The translations under genes and the position numbers were made by a program. The notes beneath the pieces were generated by a model. It was not told the DNA's origin. It was given only the letters and a program-made list of their open reading frames with translations, and did no database searches. Shown piece by piece: positions 121 to 58,965 of a DNA stretch of 58,965 nt. The stretch is taken from the IMG/VR virus record IMGVR_UViG_3300044654_000030, positions 1 to 58,965 of that record; one strand, given 5' to 3'. The first letter of the stretch is position 1; every line of letters begins with the position of its first letter. Origin of the DNA: a virus.

Positions 121-2418
121 GTGGCCCACGACGTCGTCATCGCCGACGACGCGGGGCGCCCGCTGTTCACCCAGGAGGGCGTCCTCGCCCCGCGGGGCTG
201 GAGCCCCCGCGCCGTCCAGATCGCCGCCTCGAAATACCTGCACGGCGACCCCGCCCAGGGCCGCGACCCCACGGCCGGCGGCCGCGAGTCGTCGATCTAC
301 CACCTCCACGAGCGGGTCGCCAACTTCATCGCCCGCAAGGGGGAGGAGCTCGGCTACTTCCCCGACCCGTACGTCGCCGAGCGGTTCCGCCTGGAGCTCC
401 TGGGCCTGACCCTCGGCCAGTCCGCCGCGTTCAACTCCCCCGTCTGGTTCAACGTCGGCGTGGGCGACTACGGGATCGTCGGCGACAACCGGGCCTGGGC
501 CTGGGTCCCCGGCGGCGACCCGGAGGGCGGGGCCGTCTGCGAGGTGCGGGACACGTACCGCTACCCCCAGGGCTCGGCCTGCTTCATCCAGTCCGTGGAA
601 GACGACCTCGAAAGCATCATGGAGCTGGCCCGCAACGAGTGCATCATCTTCAAGCACGGCAGCGGCACGGGGACCGACTTCTCCAAGATCCGCTCCCGCA
701 AGGAGAAGCTGTCCAACGGCGGCACCCCCAGCGGGCCGGTGTCGTTCCTGAAGGTCTACGACCGCATCGCCGCCACCATCAAGTCGGGCGGGCGCACTCG
801 TCGGGCCGCGAAGATGCAGACCCTGGGCATCTGGCACCCCGACATCCTCGACTTCATCCGCGCCAAGGGGCGCGAGGAGCTGAAGGTCCAGGCCCTGATC
901 GAGGCCGGCTACCCCGCCGACTTCAACGGGGAGGCGTACGACACGGTCGCGTTCCAGAACGCGAACTTCTCGGTGCGGGTGCCCCGGAGGTTCTTCGACC
1001 ACCTGGACGCCGGCCGGCCCTGGCCCCTGGTCGCCGTGACGACCGGGGCGGTGATCGAGCGGGTCGATCCGGCCGAGCTCTGGCGGGCCGTCGCCCTGGA
1101 GACCTGGCGGTGCGGCGACCCGGGCGTCCAGTTCAACGACACGATCAACGACTGGCACACGACGCCCTTCGCCCGCGACGGCACCCCCACGCCGATCAAC
1201 TGCTCGAACCCGTGCAGCGAATACCTATCGATCGATGATTCCGCATGTAATCTGGCGTCCCTGAACCTGATGCGGTTCCTCACGCCCGACGGCCGGGGCT
1301 TCCGGCCGACGCGGCTGATGGCGGCGGTGCGGCTGCTGGTGGTCGCCCAGGACATTTTAGTGGACTCGTGCAGCTACCCGACCGAGGCGATCGCCCGCAA
1401 CGCGCACGCCTGCCGCCAGCTCGGGCTCGGGTTCTCGAACCTGGGGGCGCTGCTCCAGTCCTGGGGCGTCCCGTACGACAGCGACGCCGGCCGCGACCTG
1501 GCCTCGGCGCTGACGGCGTTGATCTGCGGACAGGCGTACCGCACCTCGGCGCGGCTGGCCCGGGCGCTGGGGCCGTTCGACGCCTGGTCCGTCAACCGCG
1601 AGGCGATGTCCCGCGTCATCGACAAGCACGCCGAGGAGCTCGACCGCCTGCTGAGGCGCCTGCCCGACGGGCCGGCCGTCCGGTCGCGGGCCGAGGCCGT
1701 CGCCCGCGACGTCGCCGGGTATGCCCTCTCCGCCTGGGACGAGGCCCAGGCCCTCGGCGACGACACCGGCTTCCGCAACGCGCAGGTCACGGCGATCGCC
1801 CCCACGGGGACGATCTCGTTCATGATGGACTGCGACACGACCGGGATCGAGCCCAACCTCGCCCTGGTCGCCGTCAAGCACCTGGCCGGCGGGGGGTCGA
1901 TCCCGGTCGTCAACCGCGTCGTCGCCCGGGCGCTGGAGGCGCTCGCGTATGACGAGCCGACGCGGGCGAAGGTCTGCGCCTACATCCTCCGCCACGGCAC
2001 CGCCGAGGGCTGCCCCGACCTGGACCCCGCCGACCTGCCGGTCTTCGACACCTCGTTCGCGCCGCCCGGCTTCAGCAGGACCCTCCGATGGGAGGCGCAC
2101 CTGCTGATGACCGCGGCGGTCCAGCCCTGGGTGACGGGAAGCATCTCGAAGACGGTCAACGTCCCGCACGAGTTCTCCGTCGATCAGGTCGCCGCCTGCT
2201 ATCGCCTGGCCCACGACCTGGGCCTGAAGTGCGTCGCGATCTACCGCGACGGCAGCAAGGGCTCGCAGCCCCTGGTCGCCGCCAACGGGGCGGCCCCCGC
2301 GCCGGCGGAGGGCGATCCGGAGTCCACCTGCCCCTCCTGCGGGCACGTCGGCACCCACCCGGCCGGCACCTGCCGGATCTGCCCGAACTGCGGCACCCCC
2401 GACGGCGGGTGCGCCTAA
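121..2418 (+). CDS. nrdJ: Adenosylcobalamin-dependent (class II) ribonucleoside-diphosphate reductase, N-terminus unresolved
   Basis: Cytoplasmic enzyme that reduces ribonucleotides to deoxyribonucleotides with B12 radical chemistry, feeding phage DNA synthesis. Seen: FNSPVWFNVG from residue 104; redox Cys154 in SACFIQSVEDD; the catalytic N-x-C-x-E triad at Asn363, Cys365 and Glu367; second redox Cys376 in SACNLASLNL; and a C-terminal Cys-rich tail (four CxxC-type cysteines, residues about 737-765) resembling the thioredoxin-coupled Zn tail of NrdJ. No intein. The listed start is a GTG without a well-spaced SD. In-frame, coding-like sequence extends upstream to about 61 with no ATG/GTG/TTG before the stop at 10-12, and homologues have more N-terminal residues. 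The true start is therefore lost at the window edge or damaged in the poly-C tract at 41-61. At 765 residues it is on the short side for the family. Confidence 0.93.
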   Translation: MAHDVVIADDAGRPLFTQEGVLAPRGWSPRAVQIAASKYLHGDPAQGRDPTAGGRESSIYHLHERVANFIARKGEELGYFPDPYVAERFRLELLGLTLGQSAAFNSPVWFNVGVGDYGIVGDNRAWAWVPGGDPEGGAVCEVRDTYRYPQGSACFIQSVEDDLESIMELARNECIIFKHGSGTGTDFSKIRSRKEKLSNGGTPSGPVSFLKVYDRIAATIKSGGRTRRAAKMQTLGIWHPDILDFIRAKGREELKVQALIEAGYPADFNGEAYDTVAFQNANFSVRVPRRFFDHLDAGRPWPLVAVTTGAVIERVDPAELWRAVALETWRCGDPGVQFNDTINDWHTTPFARDGTPTPINCSNPCSEYLSIDDSACNLASLNLMRFLTPDGRGFRPTRLMAAVRLLVVAQDILVDSCSYPTEAIARNAHACRQLGLGFSNLGALLQSWGVPYDSDAGRDLASALTALICGQAYRTSARLARALGPFDAWSVNREAMSRVIDKHAEELDRLLRRLPDGPAVRSRAEAVARDVAGYALSAWDEAQALGDDTGFRNAQVTAIAPTGTISFMMDCDTTGIEPNLALVAVKHLAGGGSIPVVNRVVARALEALAYDEPTRAKVCAYILRHGTAEGCPDLDPADLPVFDTSFAPPGFSRTLRWEAHLLMTAAVQPWVTGSISKTVNVPHEFSVDQVAACYRLAHDLGLKCVAIYRDGSKGSQPLVAANGAAPAPAEGDPESTCPSCGHVGTHPAGTCRICPNCGTPDGGCA

Positions 2419-5285: not shown

Positions 5286-6956
5286 TCAGAAGACGAGCCA
5301 GGCGCGCTCGCAGTTGGTTCGAGTGGTTGAACATCCCGTTGATGGAACTGCGAGCGCGCCGTCGTCCCCCAAGCCCAAGTCCAGACACAAGTTCAGGTGA
5401 TGGCCGTCCCCCAGGAACCGGGCGTCGAGCCAGTCCAGGATGTGCCGTCGCTGGTCCCACGTCTGGGCAGCCTGGTTCTCCAGCCCGGCACGGACCTGCG
5501 CGGCGTGCCGGGCCAGGGCCTCCGCCTTCGCGTCGATCGCGTCGTAGCCGGCCAGCAGCCCCTGGAGCTGCGCGATGCGGGCCGCGTGGCCGTCGCGCTC
5601 GCGATTCGCCTGGGCGACCTCGCGGAGGATCATGTCGCGCAGCTCGGGGTCGTCCTGCCTGCCGAAGCTCTCCATCATGTTCTGCGCCCGGCGCTCCGCG
5701 TCCTGCTTCGCCCGCTCGGCCGCGGCCAGGCTCTCGCGATGCAGGGCCTCGCCGGGCTTGTCCCGCGTCATCCGGGCGATCTCCTGCTCGATCAGCCCCG
5801 CGGTGGTGAGCACCCGGACGACCTCGGCCCAGGCGACGTCGCGGATCTCGTCGTCGTAGACGGCCCGGACGGGGCAGGCGGGCGTGCCCGGGGTGCGGAG
5901 GTGTCGGTTGCAGCGATAGCAGGGCCGGTACGCGGGCCCGTCGCCGGCGCGACGATCGCGCGTGTAGGAGACCCACATCGGGCCGCGGCAGGCCATGCAG
6001 TAGATCCGCCCCCGCAGGAAGGTGGAGGCGCGGGCGGCGCGGCCGGCGGCGTGCCCGATGCGGGCGTGATGGCGGGCGGACATCGCGGCGACGGCCCGGT
6101 CCCAGGTCGCGGCGTCCACCAGGGCCTCGGTCTTGGCGTCGTGGGCGACGGTCCAGCGCTCCCGGGGCAGCTTGCGGTACTTCTTCCGACCGATCGTCTC
6201 GTACCGGAGGTGGGTGCTGACGCCCTTGTAGACCTCGTCCCGGACGAGGGCGTGGATGATGCCCGTGGTCCAGCGGGCCCGGCGCGACCGCGGCGGCAGG
6301 CCGCGCCGGGCGCCCGGGGTCGGGACCTGGTGCCGGTTCAGCTCATCGGCGATCTCCGTCAGGGTCCAGCCCTGGTTGGCGAGCCAGTCGTAGATCCGGC
6401 GGACCCAGGGGGCGATCCGGGGGTCCGCGACGCGGGTCCGGGTCTTCTTGTCCCAGGTCAGGCCGTACCGCCCGCCGCCTTCGCCGACGAGCTGCCCGGC
6501 GTCGCGGATCTCCTTCTTGACGCGCATCGTCCGTTCCTGGATCAGCTCCCACTCGACCTCATGGGCCCACCCCCGGATGGCGAGCATCACCTTGCCGGTC
6601 GAGTTGTCCTCGATCGGGACCAGGACGCAATGGACCCGGCAACCCCGGCGGCGGAACTCCTCGACGAGGACCTGGAGATCGGTCATGTCGCGCGCCAAGC
6701 GTTCGGTGTTGTGGACGATCACGCCGCCGATGGCCCCGACGCGGGCCAGCTCGCGGATACGCCCCAGCCCGGGGCGGATGTCGGCGGTCTTCATGCCGGA
6801 GAAGCGCTCGAAGACGACGAGATCGGGCGGGATCTCCAGGCCGCGGGCGTCGGCGAACTGGCGGATCGACGCGAGCTGGGTGTGCAGGGAATCGTCGGCG
6901 TCGCCGTGCTCATCCGAGACGCGGCAATAGGCGGCAAAGGGCTTGGTCTGGCTCAT
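5286..6956 (-). CDS. int: Large serine recombinase (phage integrase)
   Basis: 556 residues; catalyses site-specific integration and excision of the phage genome. The N-terminal resolvase domain carries catalytic Ser14 in AAYCRVSDE and an active-site Arg region around HNTERLARD. A recombinase domain follows (residues about 160-310, including RRIYDWLANQGWTLTEIADELN), then a Cys4 Zn ribbon (IYCMAC ... CYRC ... CP, about residues 317-360), then a long coiled-coil of about 110 residues, as in other large serine integrases. The start has a strong GGAGGAGG and its own promoter. The last 25 codons coincide with a 60-bp imperfect palindrome that resembles an attachment site. Confidence 0.95.
   Translation of the reverse strand: MSQTKPFAAYCRVSDEHGDADDSLHTQLASIRQFADARGLEIPPDLVVFERFSGMKTADIRPGLGRIRELARVGAIGGVIVHNTERLARDMTDLQVLVEEFRRRGCRVHCVLVPIEDNSTGKVMLAIRGWAHEVEWELIQERTMRVKKEIRDAGQLVGEGGGRYGLTWDKKTRTRVADPRIAPWVRRIYDWLANQGWTLTEIADELNRHQVPTPGARRGLPPRSRRARWTTGIIHALVRDEVYKGVSTHLRYETIGRKKYRKLPRERWTVAHDAKTEALVDAATWDRAVAAMSARHHARIGHAAGRAARASTFLRGRIYCMACRGPMWVSYTRDRRAGDGPAYRPCYRCNRHLRTPGTPACPVRAVYDDEIRDVAWAEVVRVLTTAGLIEQEIARMTRDKPGEALHRESLAAAERAKQDAERRAQNMMESFGRQDDPELRDMILREVAQANRERDGHAARIAQLQGLLAGYDAIDAKAEALARHAAQVRAGLENQAAQTWDQRRHILDWLDARFLGDGHHLNLCLDLGLGDDGALAVPSTGCSTTRTNCERAWLVF
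5301..5360. repeat. 60-bp palindrome, candidate attP, inside the 3' end of the integrase gene
   Basis: A perfect 15-bp inverted repeat, GGCGCGCTCGCAGTT at 5301-5315 and its complement at 5346-5360, is separated by 30 bp. Extended pairing gives about 22 of 30 positions per half. Length, symmetry and position beside a large serine integrase match the layout of attP sites. No T-tract follows on either strand, arguing against a terminator. Confidence 0.5.
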
Positions 6957-9908: not shown

Positions 9909-11006
9909 TTAGGTGAGCTTCTTGAAGGCGACCTGAAATTTCGGATTAAACACACAGTTGCCATAAAAATCCACAGAGAACCGCCAGCTCTTGGTGGCGA
10001 TGTCGAGGTCGGGGCCCTCGGGGACGAAGACCTGCGCCTGCTGCGACCTGAGCTCCATCATGTCCACGTTGAAGCCGTAGCCGGTCGCGGGCGTGATCCC
10101 GTACTCCCAGGTGATATCAACACCATCTTGATTGATGATATCAGAGAACCCCAGCGCGATCAGCGGGCTCTTGTCGGCCTGGCGCTCGACGACGATCCGC
10201 TCCTTGGTCCGGTAGAGGGCCTTGTACGAGCGGAACATCTCGTCGTCGCACATGATGACGTCGAGCATGCCCTTCTGGCTCTTCGACTTCTTGGCCTTCA
10301 CGATGCCGAAGCTGATGGCCTCGACGCTGTTGTTGGCCCAGGTGTTGTTGGGGCTGGCGCCGCCGGGGAACAGGCTGTCGCCGTAGTCAACGACGATGGG
10401 GCTCCAGAAGTCGAACTGCGCGTCGCCGCGGCCGTTGGGCCACGCGGGCAGGCTGCCCGGGTTCCAGGTGCCGCCGTAGAAGCCGGGGACGCAGGAGATG
10501 CCGGCGTAGGTCGCCGTCGGGGCGCCGGCGCCGTTGCCGGCGACCGCGTTGGCCGACAGGAACGACTCGATCCCGTGCATCCGCTTGGAGTTCGCGGGAT
10601 CATATCCATTGGTGTAGAATTCTTCCCCGAACGCATCTTCCATATCATCAATCAAGTCTTTACTGATATCGTCGTAAAGCTTGATGATAGCTTCAGTTGA
10701 ACGATTCTGCAAATACTCACCCTTGGTCATGGAGTCCGTGGTCGAGTACCCGCGCCAGTCGAGGAAGGCGGTCTTGTACCGGTCCTTCCGGCTGAACTCC
10801 AGCGTGTCGCCGTCGGCGAACGGGGTCAGCTTGACCCGCTTGTACTTGACCTTCCAGTCCATGCCGATGCCGGACCAGTTGAAGCTGATGCGCCCCTTCG
10901 ACTTGAGCAGGGCGGTCAGCTTACGATTGCGTAAAATATTAATTTCACGCTCTTTGATGTAATTCCGGATGGTGGAATTCACGATCCGGGACCAGGGCGC
11001 CGGCAT
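9909..11006 (-). CDS. Major capsid protein
   Basis: 365 residues; forms the icosahedral shell, presumably of HK97 fold. Evidence: a basic helical N-arm (IRNYIKEREINILRNRKLTALLK), a central P-domain-like region with MTKGEYLQNRSTEAIIKLYDDISKDLIDDMEDAFGEEFY, and a beta-rich C-terminus ending FGNCVFNPKFQVAFKKLT-like. The scaffold gene lies immediately upstream, and a near-perfect Shine-Dalgarno GGAGGTGA (strongest in the window) fits very high expression. Several segments (about 10,120-10,145, 10,600-10,740 and 10,920-10,985) use AT-rich codons, unlike neighbours. Confidence 0.88.
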   Translation of the reverse strand: MPAPWSRIVNSTIRNYIKEREINILRNRKLTALLKSKGRISFNWSGIGMDWKVKYKRVKLTPFADGDTLEFSRKDRYKTAFLDWRGYSTTDSMTKGEYLQNRSTEAIIKLYDDISKDLIDDMEDAFGEEFYTNGYDPANSKRMHGIESFLSANAVAGNGAGAPTATYAGISCVPGFYGGTWNPGSLPAWPNGRGDAQFDFWSPIVVDYGDSLFPGGASPNNTWANNSVEAISFGIVKAKKSKSQKGMLDVIMCDDEMFRSYKALYRTKERIVVERQADKSPLIALGFSDIINQDGVDITWEYGITPATGYGFNVDMMELRSQQAQVFVPEGPDLDIATKSWRFSVDFYGNCVFNPKFQVAFKKLT

Positions 11007-15736: not shown

Positions 15737-16173
15737 AGGCCGAGTGTGTAGCGGCAAAAATCGGGGAGGGGAAGATTAGTAACCCGTGCGCGCGATTGGG
15801 GGCCGGAGGGGGTCGCCGCAAGTCCAGGTAGGGCTTTGGGTTACGTTGGACACTACCGGTCGAAGACGTGTCCAGCTTGCCCAGATTACCCAGATTAACG
15901 ACGAATCGCCTCCGCCTAGCGCCCGTCCAGGCATGGACGCCTGCCCACCTATCCGCCTGCATACCTGATCGCCTACCCATCTGATCATCAGCTCACTGCT
16001 CCCAGCACTCTAGGGAACCGCGGGCGCGTGCGCCCGGGCGTGTTCCTCTATGGCACGCGGGACGGCGGGGGAGTGTGGCTTTTTCGCCACGCCAGTCCCG
16101 CACGGTCAGGCGTGGCGTATGATGGGTGTAGAGGCGAGAGAGAGCAACGACAGGCACACCTGAGGAGCGACCG
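15737..16173 (+). other. Gene-free interval, 437 bp, with repeats and a promoter
   Basis: No convincing gene. Lower GC than its surroundings. It contains an inverted repeat TGGACAC/GTGTCCA (15847-15853 and 15868-15874), a tandem 9-bp repeat CCCAGATTA x2 (15880-15897), several short CTGATC/GATCAG-like elements near 15964-15990, and the first of three related promoter-leader cassettes (16080-16173). It marks the left border of an island of different character. Confidence 0.6.
16080..16173 (+). promoter_or_regulatory. Promoter-leader cassette, copy 1
   Basis: CTTTTTCGCCACGC is followed by a perfect 9-bp inverted repeat CGCCACGCC (16085-16093)/GGCGTGGCG (16109-16117) that abuts the -10-like TATGAT (16118-16123). 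The leader ends in CACACCTGAGGAGCGACCG before the ATG at 16174. Shared segments recur before the next two genes. No clear -35, which suggests an activator or an extended -10 promoter. Confidence 0.6.
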
Positions 16174-16473
16174 ATGGAGTATCCGTACACGCTTTACGAG
16201 ACTTACCACGGTGGCATCGTGGAGCACGGTGGCATCGTGGAGATCGAAAACTTCCCGACGCTCGGGGAGGCGATCGACAACGTGACCGGCTACGGCGGTT
16301 GGTGGGAGGAGGATGAGGAGCGGTCCCGCGGGCAAGTCGGCTGGATTACGGGCCCCGGTGGGCGCGTCGAGGCGACGTTCTTCGAGCGCGGCCCCGGGCG
16401 GGATCTCGTCGTCACGCTGGCGAACGGCGAGACCACCGTCTACCCGATGCCGGTCGAGTACGTGACGGACTGA
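16174..16473 (+). CDS. Hypothetical island protein A, 99 aa
   Basis: Acidic, aromatic-rich protein with an internal duplication GGIVEHGGIVEI (residues about 14-25), followed by ENFPTLGEAIDNVTGYGGWWEEDEE and beta-rich VGWITGPGGRVEATFFERGPGRDLVVTLANGETTVYPMPVEYV. No known family. It has its own promoter cassette and is followed by a 17-bp hairpin. Codon use is less G/C-extreme than in flanking phage genes. Confidence 0.7.
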   Translation: MEYPYTLYETYHGGIVEHGGIVEIENFPTLGEAIDNVTGYGGWWEEDEERSRGQVGWITGPGGRVEATFFERGPGRDLVVTLANGETTVYPMPVEYVTD

Positions 16474-16529: not shown

Positions 16530-16581
16530 AGTGACGTAGAGTCGAGTGACGGGCAAGCGACACACACCTGAGGAGCGAGCG
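16497..16581 (+). promoter_or_regulatory. Promoter-leader cassette, copy 2
   Basis: Shares GCGACGACAC and ACGTA-A-TCG-GTGACGGG blocks with copy 3, and CACACCTGAGGAGCGA before the ATG with copy 1. The -10-like box is near TAGAGT at 16536-16541. The upstream half is fused with the 17-bp inverted repeat. Confidence 0.55.
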
Positions 16582-16851
16582 ATGTACGCCATCGGCACGG
16601 TTGACGCCTACGGGCACGCCATCCCCTGCACGCGCATCGGTTGCCTGGAAACTTGGCGCTTCGGCAAGCGCCAGATCGAGTTGAGCGGGACGCCGGAGCG
16701 CGGTTTTCGGGTCCGAACCTGGCATCAGGTCTGGCCCGACATGCCGGCCTCACTGGAGTTCGACGAGACCACACCTTGGCGCCGGGAAGCGCTGGCGTGG
16801 GTCCGCGCCGAGCTGAAGTTGGCGGTCCGGCTGGCGAACCGGGGCGAGTGA
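16582..16851 (+). CDS. Hypothetical island protein B, 89 aa
   Basis: Start at ATG 16582 behind GAGGAGCGAGCG. Begins MYAIGTVDAYGHAIPCTRIGC, then beta-strands (TWRFGKRQIELSGTPERGFRVRTWHQVW) and an amphipathic C-terminal helix (REALAWVRAELKLAVRLANRGE). Two Cys near the N-terminus. No recognised family. Second of three single-gene units, each with its own promoter cassette. Confidence 0.7.
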   Translation: MYAIGTVDAYGHAIPCTRIGCLETWRFGKRQIELSGTPERGFRVRTWHQVWPDMPASLEFDETTPWRREALAWVRAELKLAVRLANRGE

Positions 16852-16944
16852 TGCTTTTTCGCCACGCGACGACACGCACGACAGAGAACGACGTATATTC
16901 GGGTGACGGGAACGAGAGGCACGCATCCGAAGGGAGAGAGCGAG
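16852..16944 (+). promoter_or_regulatory. Promoter-leader cassette, copy 3
   Basis: Repeats CTTTTTCGCCACGC from copy 1 (at 16854-16867), then GCGACGACACGCACGAC as in copy 2, then -10-like TATATT (16894-16899), GGGTGACGGG and the ribosome site GAAGGGAGAGAG before ATG 16945. Confidence 0.6.
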
Positions 16945-19703: not shown

Positions 19704-21245
19704 ATGCCGGTTGCGTCCCCGACCCGTCGCCGTGCGGGCCGGGGACGGTTCGTCCCCACGGCGCAGGAACGCATCATGTTTGAACACCAGGTGGCGATCG
19801 GCCCCGAGTTCTTCCGCAAGTCGATGAACGACTATGCGGAGCCTCACTGGGCCTTCGTGCGAGAGATCATGCAGAATTCGATGGACTGCGGCTCGCGCGT
19901 CATCGACGTGCAAATCCAGGACATCGACATCGACGACGTGGAGCTGACCCGCGTCATCGTCACGAACGACGGCCGCCCGATGGACCGGGCGGAGATCACG
20001 GAGAAGCTGCTCGCGCTCGGGAGCAGCGGCAAGGACTTCCGGGACGGGGCGGTCGGGGGGTTCGGGCGTGCGAAAGAGATCTTGTACTTCGCCCACGCGA
20101 AGTACCAGATCGAGTCCGGGTGCTGGCGGGTCGCCGGGAGCGGCGCCGGCTACGACCTGACCGAGTCCCCGACGAGCATCATCCCCGGGACGCGCAGCAC
20201 GGTCTGGTGGGACGGACACCGCGCCGAGGCCCTGCGCGTGACGTTCCGCCGGTTCGTCGAGCTGGCGGGCCGCCAGTGGGGCGGCACGTTCCGGCTCGAC
20301 GGGGAGGAGCACCGCGGGGGCCTGCCCCTCGGGGCGTTCCGACGCGAGCTGGCCCGCGACGAGGAGACCTGGGCCCGGGTGTACACCTCCAGGGCGCCGG
20401 ATCACTCCGTGGTGGTGCGGGTCAACGGCATCCCGATGTACCGGCGCGTCACGCGGTACTCGGGGTGCGTCACGGTCGAGCTGCTGGGGACGTCGGCCGA
20501 GCGGCTGACGTCCAACCGCGACCGGCTGAAGCATCCGTTCGACGACCAGCTCGACGAGCTGATCGACCAGCTCTCGACCCATCGCAGGAAGGCGCTCCGG
20601 CCGAGCGAGCCGGCCTACCACCGCTTCGGGGGCGGGCTGCTGCGCTGGACCCCGCCCGAGCCGGAGCCGGACGGGCCCGTCGCGGTCCGGGTGGCCCCGG
20701 ACACGGCGGTCAACGGGGCGCTCCACGGGGCGCTCGTGACGACCTGCCCGCACCGGGAGTACGTGCATCGGCCGGAGGACCCGGCCCAGCCGGCGACCCT
20801 CCTCGGGTTCGCCTTCGTGTTGAAGAACGCCCGGCGGCAGGCCGTCCCGGGGTGGCTCGACCCGGCGCGGCCGCGGGCCTTCAGCCCGCACGCCGCGTGG
20901 CTCGCCCGAGCCTGGGCGGGCGTCCTCCTGGAGCTGCACGGGCTGCACCACATCACGCGGGGTTTCTGCGTCGGCTTCGTCCTGGACGACGAGGCCGACG
21001 CCCAGTACGAGGAGGGTCCGGGCGGCACCCGGACGTTCCTGATCAACCCGGCGAAGCCGGGGAAGCGGGGCCTGATCCGCAAGTTCCGCGTCGCGGACCG
21101 CGACGCGATCGTGGCGATGGCCGCGCACGAGTTCGTGCACGGCGGCATCGGCGAGATGTACCATGACGAGGACTTCGCCAATCGCCTGACGGAGGTCATG
21201 GCGAAGGCGCTGCGCCATCGTCGGCAGTTCCTGCGCCATTTCTGA
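19704..21245 (+). CDS. GHKL (Bergerat-fold) ATPase fused to an HExxH metalloprotease-like domain
   Basis: 513 residues from ATG 19704 (GGGAGG upstream; an earlier in-frame GTG/ATG at 19683 is less likely). N-terminal ATPase: N-box REIMQNSMD with Asn58, ATP-binding VTNDGRPM with Asp89, GSSGK at 106-110 and the lid GGFGRAKE at 118-125, the order found in Hsp90/MutL/histidine-kinase-type folds. A middle domain includes a beta-rich stretch and LTSNRDRLKHPFDDQLDELI, similar to a transducer segment. C-terminal domain: HEFVH at 475-479 and a third potential ligand His487 followed by DEDF, an HExxH-x7-H arrangement as in minigluzincins and YgjP/WLM-type proteases. ATP-driven conformational control of a protease is inferred. 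Nothing in the window identifies a substrate. Confidence 0.8.
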   Translation: MPVASPTRRRAGRGRFVPTAQERIMFEHQVAIGPEFFRKSMNDYAEPHWAFVREIMQNSMDCGSRVIDVQIQDIDIDDVELTRVIVTNDGRPMDRAEITEKLLALGSSGKDFRDGAVGGFGRAKEILYFAHAKYQIESGCWRVAGSGAGYDLTESPTSIIPGTRSTVWWDGHRAEALRVTFRRFVELAGRQWGGTFRLDGEEHRGGLPLGAFRRELARDEETWARVYTSRAPDHSVVVRVNGIPMYRRVTRYSGCVTVELLGTSAERLTSNRDRLKHPFDDQLDELIDQLSTHRRKALRPSEPAYHRFGGGLLRWTPPEPEPDGPVAVRVAPDTAVNGALHGALVTTCPHREYVHRPEDPAQPATLLGFAFVLKNARRQAVPGWLDPARPRAFSPHAAWLARAWAGVLLELHGLHHITRGFCVGFVLDDEADAQYEEGPGGTRTFLINPAKPGKRGLIRKFRVADRDAIVAMAAHEFVHGGIGEMYHDEDFANRLTEVMAKALRHRRQFLRHF

Positions 21246-21258
21246 GAGGAGGTCCGAC

Positions 21259-21519
21259 ATGGGGAAGCGCACACGGCCCGAGCTCCCCAAGGGCCCGCCG
21301 CCGGAGCGGCGGGACTTCACCCCGGAGGACATCGACCAGGCGATCGGGCGGCTCCGGCCGACCGAGCGCGATCGCGTGCTGTTCGATGTGCTCACCGACC
21401 TCATGCGTCGGGACATCGACGGCCGGACGACCTATCGGTTCGAGGGCGCGCCGGCGGTCCGGGAGGTCCGGACCCTGTTGGCGCTCCTGCGCCGGAAGCT
21501 GTTCCCCGAGGAGGCTTAA
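21259..21519 (+). CDS. Hypothetical protein, 86 aa
   Basis: Strong AGGAGGT start. Basic Pro-rich N-terminus, then an alpha-helical domain: DIDQAIGRLRPTERDRVLFDVLTDLMRRDIDG and AVREVRTLLALLRRKLFPEE. Follows the ATPase-protease gene by 13 bases and may be co-expressed with it. No recognised family. Confidence 0.65.
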   Translation: MGKRTRPELPKGPPPERRDFTPEDIDQAIGRLRPTERDRVLFDVLTDLMRRDIDGRTTYRFEGAPAVREVRTLLALLRRKLFPEEA

Positions 21520-21520
21520 C

Positions 21521-21796
21521 ATGGCAGCGAAGTTTCCGCTCGGCCGGGTCATCGCCACGCCCGGCGCGCTCCGGGCGATGGAGCGGGCCCACCAGGGGCC
21601 GCTGGCCTTCCTGGCGCGGCACCAGGCCGGCGACTGGGGCGACATCGACCCCGAGGACGCCGGCCTCAACGACCGGTCGCTGATCGACGGGACGCGGCTC
21701 CTCAGCGCGTACACGCTGAAGACCGGCGTCAAGATCTGGCTGATCACGGAGGCGGACCGGAGTCAGACCACCTTCCTCCTCCCCGAGGAGTATTGA
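21521..21796 (+). CDS. Conserved accessory protein (often mis-annotated as restriction subunit)
   Basis: 91 residues: FPLGRVIATPGALRAMERA, FLARHQAGDWGDI, EDAGLNDRSL, GTRLLSAYTLKTGVKIWLITEADRSQTTFLLPEEY. This motif order defines a very common small protein of plasmids, integrative elements and phages that databases sometimes name type I restriction subunit M without biochemical support. Function unknown. Start follows GAGGAGG. Confidence 0.8.
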   Translation: MAAKFPLGRVIATPGALRAMERAHQGPLAFLARHQAGDWGDIDPEDAGLNDRSLIDGTRLLSAYTLKTGVKIWLITEADRSQTTFLLPEEY

Positions 21797-21797
21797 C

Positions 21798-22031
21798 ATG
21801 AAGGCGAGGGACTTCGTGGTCTACGGGTTCTCGGATGGGAACGCCGACGAGGAAGGGCGATACGCCCTGAGCTCGCGGTGGTTCACGACCTCCTACCGGG
21901 CGGCGCGGAGGCGCTCCGCCCGGACGGGGTGGCTGATCGTGGCCTTCCAGGTTGACGGGGATTCGATCGGGGCCTCCGGCCCCGCGCATTCGGAGGAGTT
22001 CGACGATGGTGGCACGACCACGACCGCTTGA
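21798..22031 (+). CDS. Hypothetical protein, 77 aa
   Basis: Starts 2 bases after the preceding stop, with GAGGAG upstream. Contains FVVYGFSDGNADEEGRYALSSRWF and a basic RAARRRSARTGWLIVAFQVDGDS segment. Function unknown. Overlaps the next gene by 26 nt. Confidence 0.6.
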   Translation: MKARDFVVYGFSDGNADEEGRYALSSRWFTTSYRAARRRSARTGWLIVAFQVDGDSIGASGPAHSEEFDDGGTTTTA

Positions 22032-22221
22032 CGTCCGCGTCATGGACCACGGAGCGGTCGTGGTCTTCGTCCTGATGACCAAGGCCGCCCGCGACTGGGT
22101 GGACCGGTCCGTGGACATCCCGTCCTACCTGAGGATGGGGTCGTTCCAGTTCGCCTGCGAGCACAGGTACGCGCCGGACATCATCACGGGCATGCAGGAG
22201 GCCGGGCTCGCCGTGGCGTGA
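22006..22221 (+). CDS. Conserved small protein (NHGSI/EHRYxxDI family)
   Basis: 71 residues from ATG 22006 (CGGAGGAG upstream). Pattern VRVMDHGAVVVFVLMTKAARDWVDRSV ... GSFQFACEHRYAPDIITGMQEAGLAV matches a frequent phage and bacterial family with a hydrophobic N-terminal strand, A..W, and a conserved EHRYxxDLxxGMxxDGL C-terminus. Function unknown. Confidence 0.75.
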   Translation: MVARPRPLDVRVMDHGAVVVFVLMTKAARDWVDRSVDIPSYLRMGSFQFACEHRYAPDIITGMQEAGLAVA

Positions 22222-22342: not shown

Positions 22343-23047
22343 ATGAGTCCACGCGCACGATCCGGGCCGCGCGGCATGTTGGTGCTGGGCAACCGGCATC
22401 TCGGGCCCGACATCTGGTCGTTCAGCATCCCGGCCTTCGCGACGTGCCCGGGGTGCTCGTTCCCCTGCCTGGCGGTCTGCACCGCCATGCGGGGGCACTA
22501 CATGCACCAGGCCGTTCGGGACTTCCACCGGGAGAACTGGGAGCGGTCCCTCGACCCGCCACGCTTCCAGCGGGACATGATCCGCGAGATCAAGTCCCGG
22601 TTCGTCCGGGACTTGAGGGTCCACGTCGCGGGGGACTTCTACGACGTCCCCTACGTCCAATCGTGGACGCGGATCGTCCGGCGGTGCCGGACGACCACGT
22701 TCCTGGCCTACACCAGGAGCTGGCGGCGGCCGGAGCTGCTCGACCCGCTGGTCGAGCTGTCCCGGCTCCCGAACATGCGGATGTTCTGGTCGGAGGACGC
22801 CCAGACGGGCGCCTGCGACCGGCCGGAGGGGCGCCGGGCGTTCCTCTGCGCGACGGCCGCCGACGAGCTGGTCGTCCCGCGGGAGCCGATCCTCGTGTTC
22901 CGGGACGACACGCGGTCCGTCCGGAAGTGGTTCGGCCCCGCGTGGGTCTGCCCCAAGGAGCAGGGGACCCCGACGCTGATCACGTGCAGCGCCTGCCGGC
23001 GCTGCCTCCTGCCCGACCCCCTGCCCCGCAACCCGAGGAAACCATGA
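22343..23047 (+). CDS. Phage gp88-like protein
   Basis: 234 residues, AAAGGAG before the ATG. The signature LGPDIWSFSIPAFATCPGCSFPCLAVC-type opening (four Cys), HVAGDFYDVPYVQSWTRIVRRC, FLAYTRSWRRPELL and NMRMFWSEDAQTG match the gp88-like domain of actinophage and other phages (Pfam GP88). A C-terminal CPKEQ...CSACRRC adds a probable metal site. Cys-rich cores suggest a bound metal or Fe-S centre. No biochemical role is known to me. Confidence 0.85.
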   Translation: MSPRARSGPRGMLVLGNRHLGPDIWSFSIPAFATCPGCSFPCLAVCTAMRGHYMHQAVRDFHRENWERSLDPPRFQRDMIREIKSRFVRDLRVHVAGDFYDVPYVQSWTRIVRRCRTTTFLAYTRSWRRPELLDPLVELSRLPNMRMFWSEDAQTGACDRPEGRRAFLCATAADELVVPREPILVFRDDTRSVRKWFGPAWVCPKEQGTPTLITCSACRRCLLPDPLPRNPRKP

Positions 23048-25830: not shown

Positions 25831-25859
25831 GTGACAAGCCTGTTGCGTTTTGGTAACAT
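25831..25859 (+). promoter_or_regulatory. Promoter GTGACA-17-TAACAT of the second recombinase
   Basis: -35 GTGACA (25831-25836), 17-bp spacer, -10 TAACAT (25854-25859); start near 25866. Placed immediately right of the inverted repeat, so expression is likely repressed through it. Confidence 0.65.
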
Positions 25860-25915
25860 ATGAGGAGGAACCGATCTCATTTCCTGCGGACGCCCCGCGG
25901 GGCGGCGGAGGGCCG

Positions 25916-26677
25916 ATGCCGGACAGGACACCAGTGACGTACGCCTATATCCGCATGTCGAAGGCGAGCCAGGTGGGCTCGCCGGACGACCAGCGGGACA
26001 CGATCGGCCGCACGGCGGCGGCCGACGGCCGCTCGGTGGACATCTGGATCACCGACGCGGCGATCAGCGGCAAGGTCCCCCTCCTGAAGCGGGAGGGGGG
26101 CCGCGAGCTCGACGCCCGGCTCAAGAAAGGGGACCACGTCTACATCGCCCGGCTCGACCGGATGTTCCGCCGGGCGAGCGACTGCGCGCTGATCATCGAC
26201 CGCTGGCAGCGGATCGGCGTCCACCTCCATGTGTGCAACCTCATGGGGATGGGCATCGACCTCAGCTCGGCGGTCGGCCGGTTCATCGCGCTGATCCTGG
26301 CGGCGGTGGCCGAGCTGGAGCGGGAGTTCATCGCCGAGCGGACCCGCGACAGCCTGGCCCGCCGCCGCCGCACGGGCGGCGCGTGCGGCCGGTACGCCGG
26401 CTACGGGTGGAAGTGGCGCAAGCTGTGGGACCCCGAGAAGGGTCGCCACGTCAAGACCAAGGTGCGCAACGAGGAGGAGCGCGCCATCATGAGGGAGATC
26501 GTCAAGTGGCGGGCCGAGGGCCACAGCTTCGACGAGATCTCCCAGCATCTCACGTACACCCTGAAGGTGTTGACGTGGGAGGGCAAGGAATGGACGCTGA
26601 AACGGTGCCAGCGGGCCTACGTGGCGGAGCTGAAGTTGCAGCTCGCCGAGGCCCGCCGGGGCGACCACGAGGCATAA
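25916..26677 (+). CDS. Serine recombinase, resolvase/invertase type
   Basis: 253 residues from ATG 25916 (GGAGGG upstream). N-terminal catalytic domain with Ser15 in YAYIRMSKASQ, DQRDTI, active-site Arg region ARLDRMFRRASD, LAAVAELEREFIAERT helix E, then a short recombinase-type domain with RTGGACGRYAGYGWKWR and an HTH-like segment KWRAEGHSFDEISQHL. Much shorter than the phage integrase and with no Zn ribbon, so closer to resolvases, invertases or small transposon recombinases. It might invert a segment, resolve multimers or belong to a passenger element. Confidence 0.88.
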   Translation: MPDRTPVTYAYIRMSKASQVGSPDDQRDTIGRTAAADGRSVDIWITDAAISGKVPLLKREGGRELDARLKKGDHVYIARLDRMFRRASDCALIIDRWQRIGVHLHVCNLMGMGIDLSSAVGRFIALILAAVAELEREFIAERTRDSLARRRRTGGACGRYAGYGWKWRKLWDPEKGRHVKTKVRNEEERAIMREIVKWRAEGHSFDEISQHLTYTLKVLTWEGKEWTLKRCQRAYVAELKLQLAEARRGDHEA

Positions 26678-27427: not shown

Positions 27428-27955
27428 ATGCCCGAAGTCCCAGCCTGCCGCCTCTGCGAGGCGCCCGGGGTCGCGGCCCTGGGCCTCTGCAACAAGCACT
27501 ACCACCGCTACCGCGCCGCCGGCAAGCCCGCGCTGGAGCCCTGGATCGAGGGCCAGCTCGCGCTCGAACGCGACGGCGGGCCGTCGCGCCGCAGGCGCTG
27601 CCTCGTCTGCGGCCAGCCCGCCGACGCCTGGGGCCTGTGCCACAAGCACGCCGAGCGCTATCGGCGGGCCGGCAAGCCCGAGCTGGAGCCCTGGGTCGCC
27701 CGGCAGCGGGCGCAGGACGACCTCCGGGTCGCCTGCGTCATCTGCGGGACGCCGTTCCACGCCTACCAGGGGCGCCTGACGTGCTCGCGAGCCTGCTACG
27801 AGGAGCGCCTCCGCCGGGCGGCGCGGGCGAGGCTCCACGCCGAGACCCCCGACCGGCGGGCGGAGCGGCTGCGCCGCCGCAACGAGCGCGACCGCCTCCG
27901 GCGGGCGGCGCCCCCGGGGGACGACGCCCCCGGGGGCGGGACGCCCACCCCTTGA
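27428..27955 (+). CDS. Zn-finger array protein, first of a paralogous pair
   Basis: 175 residues. Two repeats of a C-x2-C-x9-GLC-x2-H-x3-RY-x-x-GKP-x4-EPW module (residues about 7-50 and 57-95), then a third Cys unit CVICGTPFHAYQGRLTCSRAC and a charged Arg/Glu-rich helix. Such modules occur in phage HNH-type proteins, but no HNH catalytic core is present here. Likely nucleic-acid binding, inferred. AGGAGG start. Confidence 0.75.
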   Translation: MPEVPACRLCEAPGVAALGLCNKHYHRYRAAGKPALEPWIEGQLALERDGGPSRRRRCLVCGQPADAWGLCHKHAERYRRAGKPELEPWVARQRAQDDLRVACVICGTPFHAYQGRLTCSRACYEERLRRAARARLHAETPDRRAERLRRRNERDRLRRAAPPGDDAPGGGTPTP

Positions 27956-27980
27956 CGGTCCGCGGGCCGTCGCGTAGGAT
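27952..27980 (+). promoter_or_regulatory. Promoter TTGACG-17-TAGGAT
   Basis: The -35 TTGACG (27952-27957) overlaps the stop codon of the first Zn-finger gene; -10 TAGGAT (27975-27980). Expected start near 27987, giving a 125-nt leader for the second Zn-finger gene. Confidence 0.65.
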
Positions 27981-28056
27981 GTCGGATTCGCCGGGCCGCC
28001 GGGCGTGAACGGGCGGCGAGGCCGCCGGGGGGCCGCATCCCCGGGAGGTACGGACC

Positions 28057-28119
28057 ATGCACCCACCCTCACGAGGGCCGGCCCCTCCGCTCGCGCCGGC
28101 TCCCCTCCCCGATGCCTGA
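28057..28119 (+). CDS. Candidate 20-aa leader peptide
   Basis: ATG at 28057 with GGGAGGT at good spacing opens a 20-codon frame rich in Pro and Ala (begins MHPPSRGP). It ends at 28119, just past the ATG of the next gene at 28112, so ribosomes finishing it could re-initiate there. The next gene itself has no good ribosome site. Too short for standard callers; could be chance. Confidence 0.45.
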   Translation: MHPPSRGPAPPLAPAPLPDA

Positions 28120-28789
28120 GAAACCGTGCCGGGTCTGCGGGCGCCCCGCGACGGCGGCGCGGGGCCTCTGCCAGGCCCACTACCACCGCTGGACCAAGGC
28201 CGGCCGGCCCGACCTGGACGCCTGGCCCGCCGAGCAGCGGGCGCGGGAGGCGGCCCCGCCGCCCCCGCCGCCCGCGTGCCGCGTCTGCGACCGCCCCGCC
28301 GAGCAGCGGGGCCTGTGCCACGCCCACTATGAGCGCTGGCGGCGATGGGGCCGGCCCGACCTCGACGAATGGGTCGCGGCGTTCCGCGAGGGACGCCTCA
28401 ACATCTGCACCATCTGCGGCCGGGGCTACAACGGCTACCACGGGAGTCAGACGTGTTCCCGGGCGTGCGACCAGGAGCGGCGCCGCCGCGCCGCCCTGGC
28501 GTACTTCTACGCCCTGCCGCCCGAGCAGCGGGAGGAGGTGTACCGCCGCCAGATGGACCGCAACCGGCGGGCCAGCGAGGCCCGCCAGGTCGAGATCCGG
28601 TGCCAGGGACCGGGCTGCGACGTGACGTTCCGGGGGATGCCGGGCCGGAAGTTTTGTTCCAAGCGATGCCGGGACCGCGAGGCCGCCCGGCACCGCGACG
28701 AGATCCGGAAGCGGGTCCGCGACTTCGACGCCGCCCGGCTGGCGACGGAGCTGATCCGCAAGCTCGAAGGAGAGGACGAGGGATCATGA
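28112..28789 (+). CDS. Zn-finger array protein, second of a paralogous pair
   Basis: 225 residues. Same C-x2-C...GLC-x2-H-x3-RW module twice (residues about 6-48 and 55-95), followed by CTICGRGYNGYHGSQTCSRAC and a further Cys pair unit RCQGPGCDVTF ... KFCSKRCRDRE, then a basic helical tail. Longer than its upstream paralogue by one Cys unit. Likely nucleic-acid binding; no nuclease motif is visible. Probably translated by coupling to the leader peptide. Overlaps the next gene by ATGA. Confidence 0.75.
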   Translation: MPEKPCRVCGRPATAARGLCQAHYHRWTKAGRPDLDAWPAEQRAREAAPPPPPPACRVCDRPAEQRGLCHAHYERWRRWGRPDLDEWVAAFREGRLNICTICGRGYNGYHGSQTCSRACDQERRRRAALAYFYALPPEQREEVYRRQMDRNRRASEARQVEIRCQGPGCDVTFRGMPGRKFCSKRCRDREAARHRDEIRKRVRDFDAARLATELIRKLEGEDEGS

Positions 28790-57519: not shown

Positions 57520-58965
57520 CTAGCCCAGGCGGATCGAGTCGCCCCAGCCGGGGTCGCGGCCCCGGGCCCGCTCCCGGCGCCGCTTCGCCTCCAGGGCGTC
57601 GGTGGTGTACCCCTTCGCGCGGGGCTTGACGGCGGGCCGGCGGTACGGGAGCCGCGCCATCGCCAGGTAGCGCCAACAATCGATCAGGTGATCGTTCGCC
57701 TTGATCGGCTCGTCGGTGACGATGCCCGAGGGGAGCTTCTTGTAGCTGTACCGCTCGGCCTCCCAGAGGAGCATGGGGCACGAGTCGCGGAACACGACCC
57801 ACTTCGAGCGCCCCTCGGCGTCGAGGTGCAGGCCCGCCCGCACCGCCTCGATCCCGGCCCGGACGTCGTCGCCGCCCGAGGCGGTGGACCAGGTGAACCC
57901 GGTCAGGTGCCCGGGGCGGAAGACCCCGGCCTGCGCCAGGGCGCGGCGGTACTGCTCCTCGTGCGTCACCCCCGAGCCGATCTCGGTGATGCGCCCGGCC
58001 CGCATGTCGATGATCGCCTTGTGGACCACCTGATCGCCTAGTTTTCTCCGCAATTCCTCCGCGAACCGGGCGGCGGTCGCCTGGCGGATGTAGAGCTCGT
58101 CGTACAGGAACACCCGCCCGGCGTGGGGCGAGCCCGGCGGCGGCACGGCGGCGAACAGGACGGCGCAGACCTGCCGGCCCGGGTCCACGGCGATGTAGCG
58201 GGTCCAGTCGCTCGGGATCGGGAAGGCGTCGCACCCGTGCGGCCCGCGGGGCGCGAACTCGGCGTAGACCCGCGTGCCCAGCAGGGCGAAGTCGCCCAGC
58301 ACCCGGATGCGGTACTCGTCGGCCGAGAGCTTGGCCGCGAAGTCCCGCTTCTCCTTCTCCCCCAGGTGCGGGTTCTCCAGCAGGGTCAGGTGGAACTCCC
58401 GCACCGGCGGGTCCTCCACCCCGGCCGCCTCCAGCTCGTGCGCCCGGCAGTGCAGGTCGTACAGGTGCTGCGTCCCCGCCTGGGGCGTCGCCGTCCAATA
58501 AAAGAATCCTTTCCTGTCAATGATCCGGGCGCTGGTCTCGGTGTACCAGGACGGGTGGTCGATCTCCTCGTCGAACCAGGCGGCATCGACGTCGATGCCC
58601 TGGCGGGGCTCGCCCACGCTGGAAAAGAACAGGAGCTCCCAGCCGTTGTGCAGCAAGACCTTGCGCGGGATGCCCGACTTCTTGTCCTCCCACGCGACGC
58701 CCTTGATCAGGTTGGTCGGCAGCAGCGGCGGGGCCGGCTTGGCGCGGGCGGCGTGGGCGGCGTCCCAGGGGTCGTGCGGCCGGAAGGCACGCCAGGCGCC
58801 GTCGGGGCCGCGGATGATCTTGAAGGCGCCGGGCCGCACCAGCTTGCGCCACATCACCTCGCCGCAGTGGTTGAGGTCCTTGCCGCACAGGAGGAACCGG
58901 CCGTGCTCCTTCGGGGCGCGGGGATTCAGGCCGCGGACCGTGCGGGCGCACATCACGGCGCCGAT
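57520..58965 (-). CDS. Terminase large subunit (N-terminus cut by the window edge)
   Basis: The DNA-packaging motor. The frame is open to the last base of the window; the first residues (IGAVMCARTVR) look like the helix that follows a Walker A motif, which must lie just outside. Seen: Walker B-like QGIDVDAAWFDEE at about residues 119-131, coupling motif FYWTATP about 153-158, nuclease-type acidic residues YIAVDPGR (about 255), IIDMRAG (about 315) and DHLIDCWRYL (about 415). The last residues are basic. Nearest neighbour is a small gene and then the portal. Confidence 0.92.
   Translation of the reverse strand: MGAVMCARTVRGLNPRAPKEHGRFLLCGKDLNHCGEVMWRKLVRPGAFKIIRGPDGAWRAFRPHDPWDAAHAARAKPAPPLLPTNLIKGVAWEDKKSGIPRKVLLHNGWELLFFSSVGEPRQGIDVDAAWFDEEIDHPSWYTETSARIIDRKGFFYWTATPQAGTQHLYDLHCRAHELEAAGVEDPPVREFHLTLLENPHLGEKEKRDFAAKLSADEYRIRVLGDFALLGTRVYAEFAPRGPHGCDAFPIPSDWTRYIAVDPGRQVCAVLFAAVPPPGSPHAGRVFLYDELYIRQATAARFAEELRRKLGDQVVHKAIIDMRAGRITEIGSGVTHEEQYRRALAQAGVFRPGHLTGFTWSTASGGDDVRAGIEAVRAGLHLDAEGRSKWVVFRDSCPMLLWEAERYSYKKLPSGIVTDEPIKANDHLIDCWRYLAMARLPYRRPAVKPRAKGYTTDALEAKRRRERARGRDPGWGDSIRLG

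Follow-up and report, generated by a model that had tools for sequence, protein, structure and literature searches.

A phage and megaplasmid protein family that joins a GHKL ATPase to a predicted HExxH zincin

The window, i.e., the whole stretch of DNA that was analysed, comprises 58,965 nt and represents an entire IMG/VR virus record (IMGVR_UViG_3300044654_000030). Besides the gene under study, several genes of a phage were recognised on it:

19704-21245, plus strand: coding sequence of the GHKL-zincin fusion protein, 513 aa (ORF translation)
121-2418, plus strand: ribonucleotide reductase large subunit (PHROG 84, 4e-95)
5286-6956, minus strand: serine recombinase (PHROG integrase / DNA-invertase families)
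9909-11006, minus strand: major head protein
25850-26677, plus strand: serine recombinase (PHROG integrase / DNA-invertase families)
57520-58956, minus strand: terminase

The presence of two serine recombinases suggests that the contig derives from a temperate phage; the ribonucleotide reductase is an unusual cargo for a phage of 59 kb. The capsid protein found no match in the phage collection and the terminase distant matches only, and neither a tRNA nor an Rfam match was detected anywhere in the 58,965-nt contig. The codon-position GC content of the reading frame at 19704-21245 (0.71/0.49/0.94, in a contig of 73% GC) marks it as a real gene, and a good Shine-Dalgarno sequence (GGGAGG) lies upstream of its start at 19704. 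Met-25 (19776) provides an alternative internal start, and since the homologues begin near this position, the first ~24 residues are a non-conserved extension. All motif residues listed in a preliminary description of this ORF, which had proposed the fusion of a GHKL ATPase with an HExxH metalloprotease-like domain, are present in its translation. The protein can be divided as follows:

19803-20213, plus strand: GHKL/Bergerat ATPase domain, ~residues 34-170 (Foldseek, profile matches, hhalign)
19863-19877, plus strand: N-box E54-I-M-Q-N58, with the general base Glu and the Mg-binding Asn (invariant in 22/22)
19965-19970, plus strand: N88-D89; position 88 corresponds to the Asp with which GHKL proteins contact adenine and is occupied by Asn in this clade (alignments)
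20055-20066, plus strand: ATP-lid GGFG, residues 118-121 (G118 and G121 invariant)
20214-20594, plus strand: transducer-like domain, ~residues 171-297 (model, Foldseek, conservation)
20514-20522, plus strand: invariant N271-R272-D273 in the transducer-like domain (alignment)
20595-20798, plus strand: linker, residues 298-365 (model, alignment)
20799-21242, plus strand: predicted C-terminal zincin domain, residues 366-513 (model, Foldseek, weak Pfam matches)
21126-21140, plus strand: HEFVH, residues 475-479, predicted zinc ligands and catalytic Glu (27/27 members)
21162-21170, plus strand: H487-D-E489, predicted third zinc ligand and an invariant Glu (22/22)

In the N-terminal half, the ATPase and transducer-like domains together span ~residues 34-297. 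A full-length structural model (pLDDT 81) retrieved TRAP1/Hsp90, MutL, and MORC as the best Foldseek matches across both domains, and thus a Bergerat fold with its transducer is recovered from model and structure search alike. Profile comparisons of the GHKL domain pointed in the same direction (MutL, 3e-6; MORC3, 6e-6), as did hhalign, which yielded E-values of 1.8e-9 for HtpG and 2.4e-9 for MutL, with shuffled controls at 0.25-0.67. By its location and pattern, the N271-R272-D273 motif matches 'SREIL' in HtpG as well as 'SREAL' in the T4 rIIA protein, and R272 may hence be the transducer arginine. Residues 323-363 of the linker are predicted to be disordered, and this segment varies in length between members of the family.

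The preliminary description had credited the protein with a full ATPase signature. Its N-box (N58) and its GGFG lid stood up to closer inspection; the assignment of Asp-89 as the Bergerat aspartate was mistaken, as D58 of MutL and the 'DNG' motif of HtpG both align with residue 88. Most of the family carries Asp at this position, and nine out of ten members of the clade to which the 513-aa protein belongs carry Asn; in eight out of ten members of the same clade, the 513-aa protein included, the second Gly of the DxGxG motif is replaced by Pro (P92). Judged from the alignments, the family thus possesses every element of the signature (the N-box Glu and Asn, DxGxG, and the glycine lid), whereas the 513-aa protein departs from it at DxGxG. 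An Asp-to-Asn exchange at the adenine-contacting site abolishes ATP binding in Hsp90 and MutL, and N88 therefore renders the use of ATP by the 513-aa protein uncertain.

The C-terminal half was modeled with a pLDDT of 92.5. Its best match in the PDB is the minigluzincin jannalysin (Foldseek probability 1.00, TM by target 0.61, E 6e-3), abylysin, another minigluzincin, follows with a probability of 0.99, and the named viral Foldseek matches are largely SprT-like proteins. At the level of sequence, Pfam gave weak matches to WLM in 9 of 21 members and to YgjP in 7 of 21; the best E-value for WLM (7e-5, in a homologue) and that for YgjP in the 513-aa protein (0.22) are both below the curated cut-off. 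No member reached the curated cut-off for a SprT/WLM subfamily, and the hhalign probability for SprT was 8%. HExxH and a third ligand are found here within a modeled zincin fold, which bears out the candidate zinc site HEFVH...H487 of the preliminary description; the C-terminal half is hence best regarded as a predicted zincin that is remote from every named subfamily.

We recovered 27 full-length members of this family: the protein encoded by the window, those of 20 other IMG/VR contigs (23-408 kb), those of five bacterial megaplasmids found by tblastn of plasmids (Pseudomonas, Rhizobium, Methylorubrum, Bosea), and one from a Methylobacterium genome. A 28th member is truncated. The family falls into four clades, and identity to the 513-aa protein goes down to ~24%. 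Scanning the viral contigs with a single protein gave no match, so that an alignment was needed as the query; starting from an alignment of the full-length plasmid relatives, the viral relatives and the Methylobacterium member were located. In alignment scans of bacterial genome contigs, one gave no member and another gave one full member together with other GHKL proteins. The 513-aa protein and three other members found no tblastn match among 50,697 isolate phages, and the GHKL matches of the 513-aa protein in Pfam, NCBIfam, PHROGs, and PADLOC were all sub-threshold; among the PADLOC defence models, the only one was TmtA (E 0.007, across 72 GHKL residues). When 397 and 398 bacterial genomes were sampled from the order and the phylum of the Methylobacterium genome, respectively, the family was present only in that reference genome. 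Within the bacteria sampled, such rarity rules out a bacterial housekeeping gene, and the family is essentially confined to viruses and megaplasmids, a spread that points to a function on behalf of the mobile element rather than to host housekeeping.

A terminase was detectable with PHROG profiles in 8 of the 21 virus records, the 408-kb one included; the remaining records may be fragments or may carry other terminase types. One 215-kb 'viral' contig (L022) may be a plasmid or a chromosomal piece, given a SmpB-like ORF recognised by eye near its family member (L022:8399-8857). Weak plasmid matches (L007, L008, L009) and a further locus (L043) were set aside, as they belong to other GHKL families and have no HExxH. 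Among GHKL proteins outside the family, the closest relatives found are ~920-aa proteins of Aminicenantes (L046:5454-8216 and L047:3632-6397; hhalign 2.6e-11), whose N-box reads RELAQNSRDA and which have no HExxH.

Both the HExxH-x(5-8)-H motif and the N-box RE..QN are kept in all 27 full-length members. Residue invariance was counted in an alignment of 22 rows, with the numbering of the 513-aa protein. Invariant throughout are Y44, R53, E54, Q57, N58, G90, M93, K110, G118, and G121 on the ATPase side, N271, R272, and D273 in the transducer, and W404, G424, H475, E476, H479, H487, and E489 in the C-terminal half; N58 and the proposed zinc-site residues H475, E476, H479, and H487, which had been singled out for a survey of homologues, are thus each retained in 22 of 22. 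In two close pairs of members, dN/dS was 0.10 and 0.15 overall and 0.06-0.19 for the halves, a range also spanned by the C-terminal half. Hence, both halves are under purifying selection. Collectively, these data strongly support the 513-aa protein as a GHKL ATPase fused to an HExxH zincin: the homologues keep the HExxH segment as well as the N-box, the predicted C-terminal fold is of a protease type, and the joint occurrence of the two is not a matter of chance.

The fusion gene lies in a plus-strand early or accessory region, with tightly spaced small uncharacterised genes on either side. The suggestion of a phage accessory operon thus holds for the setting but not for a conserved effector operon: neighbouring genes are common to close clade mates only, none is shared across clades, and the small genes at 21259-22221, whose co-occurrence with the fusion had been put forward for a survey, have no counterparts beside any other family member. 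A helicase gene is found near members of one clade and a PolX-like gene near another. No rIIB-like ORF is present in the 58,965-nt contig or in the examined neighbourhoods of other members. Shortly downstream of the fusion gene, a GP88 family protein (PF17338, 6e-25) is encoded at 22346-23047 on the plus strand. Elsewhere in the window, an intergenic cassette is repeated at 16128-16176, 16536-16584, and 16893-16941 (49-82 nt, 61-76% identical); each copy directly precedes one of three small genes in a row, and a common Shine-Dalgarno/start context closes two of the copies. The cassettes likely serve as an early promoter or operator present in repeated form. Repeats of ~100 nt at 27428-28789 lie inside adjoining ORFs; the Cys/His motif that they encode time and again ('GLCNKHYHRY...GKPALEPW'-like) resembles a zinc-binding module in repeated form.

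How might such a protein work? The reading that we favour, with moderate confidence, is that a nucleotide-operated GHKL clamp gates the predicted zincin protease and thereby serves the fitness of the phage or plasmid. The GHKL ATPase and its transducer would bind nucleotide, the lid would close, and the protein would dimerise in the manner of Hsp90, MutL, and MORC; the ensuing conformational change would position or unmask the C-terminal zincin, which would then cleave a protein target. The beneficiary would most likely be the mobile element, through cleavage of a host or competitor protein or of proteins sitting on DNA, and the protein would act early in infection or while the plasmid is being maintained. 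That the protein hydrolyses ATP, dimerises, and is a gated protease with a protein target is what we infer from the conservation of both active sites in four clades, the fold matches of each half, the selection on both, and the location on 21 virus records and five plasmids; VcSduA provides a precedent, since its GHKL domain is proposed to control a fused C-terminal effector (PMC12137116). An ATP-gated protease is accordingly plausible for the family, with takeover, anti-defence, abortive infection, and the digestion of DNA-bound proteins as candidate roles. Against this reading stand the Asn at the adenine-contacting site of the 513-aa protein and eight of its nine clade mates, in which ATP gating may fail, the remoteness of the C-domain matches, and the fact that no conserved partner gene hints at a target. 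More tentatively, the family could constitute an undescribed class of nucleotide-driven clamp proteases in which a motor of the MutL/MORC/Hsp90 type loads onto DNA or client proteins and feeds the fused zincin; in the D88N/G92P clade, whose nucleotide pocket has changed, a different nucleotide or an allosteric ligand may take the place of ATP.

Other readings assign the two halves different tasks. The GHKL-transducer part might encircle or bind DNA, with the SprT/WLM-like half digesting proteins that are stuck on phage or plasmid DNA or bind it tightly; we hold this to be possible but doubtful, and the same applies to crosslinks, nucleoid proteins, or defence proteins as its substrates. The nearest GHKL matches (MutL, MORC, Hsp90), the presence of WLM and SprT-like families among the nearest protease matches, and the helicase and PolX-like genes near two of the clades are consistent with it, and the cellular WLM/SprT-like members Wss1 and SPRTN degrade DNA-protein crosslinks. 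However, the neighbours vary by clade, and in the PDB the minigluzincins match better than SprT. A comparably doubtful view is that the family is a variant of the rIIA lineage whose protease half acts on host exclusion systems. The rIIA profile matches the family over 234 columns (hhalign probability 97.4, E 9e-12), an R-[DE] motif occurs at a similar place in both, and a jumbo-phage survey describes rIIA orthologues as GHKL proteins with a highly variable C-terminal domain (PMC7824862). Yet T4 rIIA alone is a poorer match than either HtpG or MutL, six rIIA proteins that were checked have no HExxH, and rIIB is near no member; we therefore rejected membership in rIIA itself.

Somewhat less probable still is a loss of nucleotide binding in the N88 clade, which would leave the protease permanently active or under the control of a partner, with the GHKL part as a scaffold for dimerisation or for binding substrates. 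The replacements at positions 88 and 92 speak for such a loss, but E54, N58, K110, the lid glycines, and R272 have stayed invariant within this very clade, which would be odd for a dead ATPase. That the protein is a chaperone whose C-terminal zincin fold is non-proteolytic and holds a structural zinc site seems improbable: the N-terminal half is Hsp90-like and the HtpG C-terminal domain appears among weak, noise-level matches of the C-domain, but the catalytic Glu-476 would not be expected to be invariant in a purely structural site. An HExxH motif alone often arises by chance; its conservation at one place together with a third His, and a zincin fold that was predicted independently, make a fortuitous motif in an unrelated C-terminus a negligible prospect.

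A gated protease of the kind that we favour would add proteolysis to the activities known to be driven by GHKL ATPases: those of topoisomerases, of the endonucleases in mismatch repair, of chaperones, and, as recognised of late, of a defence nuclease. The retention of both active sites in 27 diverged members makes the family directly testable through point mutants. It also gives a family name to unannotated genes of large environmental phages and megaplasmids, and studies of rIIA, whose biochemistry has long defied solution, gain a natural point of comparison.

With Hsp90/HtpG, MutL, and MORC, the family shares the fold and motifs of ATPase and transducer; we know of none of these with a fused zincin protease. 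With WLM/Wss1, YgjP, SprT-like proteins, and jannalysin/abylysin, it shares the HExxH-x5-8-H[DN] motif and the fold, and with SprT also an NP motif upstream, but its sequence matches to the WLM, YgjP, and SprT zincins are below the Pfam cut-offs. To our knowledge, these proteases and the minigluzincins are stand-alone or DNA-binding enzymes with no GHKL domain. The preliminary description had known of no such fusion, and none was found in the published literature searched, preprints and supplements being outside this search. In the jumbo-phage survey, SprT-like proteases appear as separate proteins, and no GHKL/SprT fusion is described in the passages found (PMC7824862). Like the fusion family, rIIA of T4 and its relatives combines an N-terminal GHKL ATPase with a transducer and is encoded in phage early regions; the six rIIA proteins checked adjoin rIIB and lack HExxH, whereas the members of the fusion family are mostly shorter, end in a zincin half, and have no rIIB nearby. 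VcSduA, a Shedu protein with a GHKL N-terminal domain hypothesised to control its fused C-terminal nuclease (PMC12137116), resembles the family in this proposed division of labour and differs from it in being a bacterial defence protein whose effector is a PD-(D/E)xK nuclease. Fusions of GHKL ATPases to effectors are already known from rIIA and the GHKL-Shedu protein VcSduA; the literature searched describes none with a zincin.
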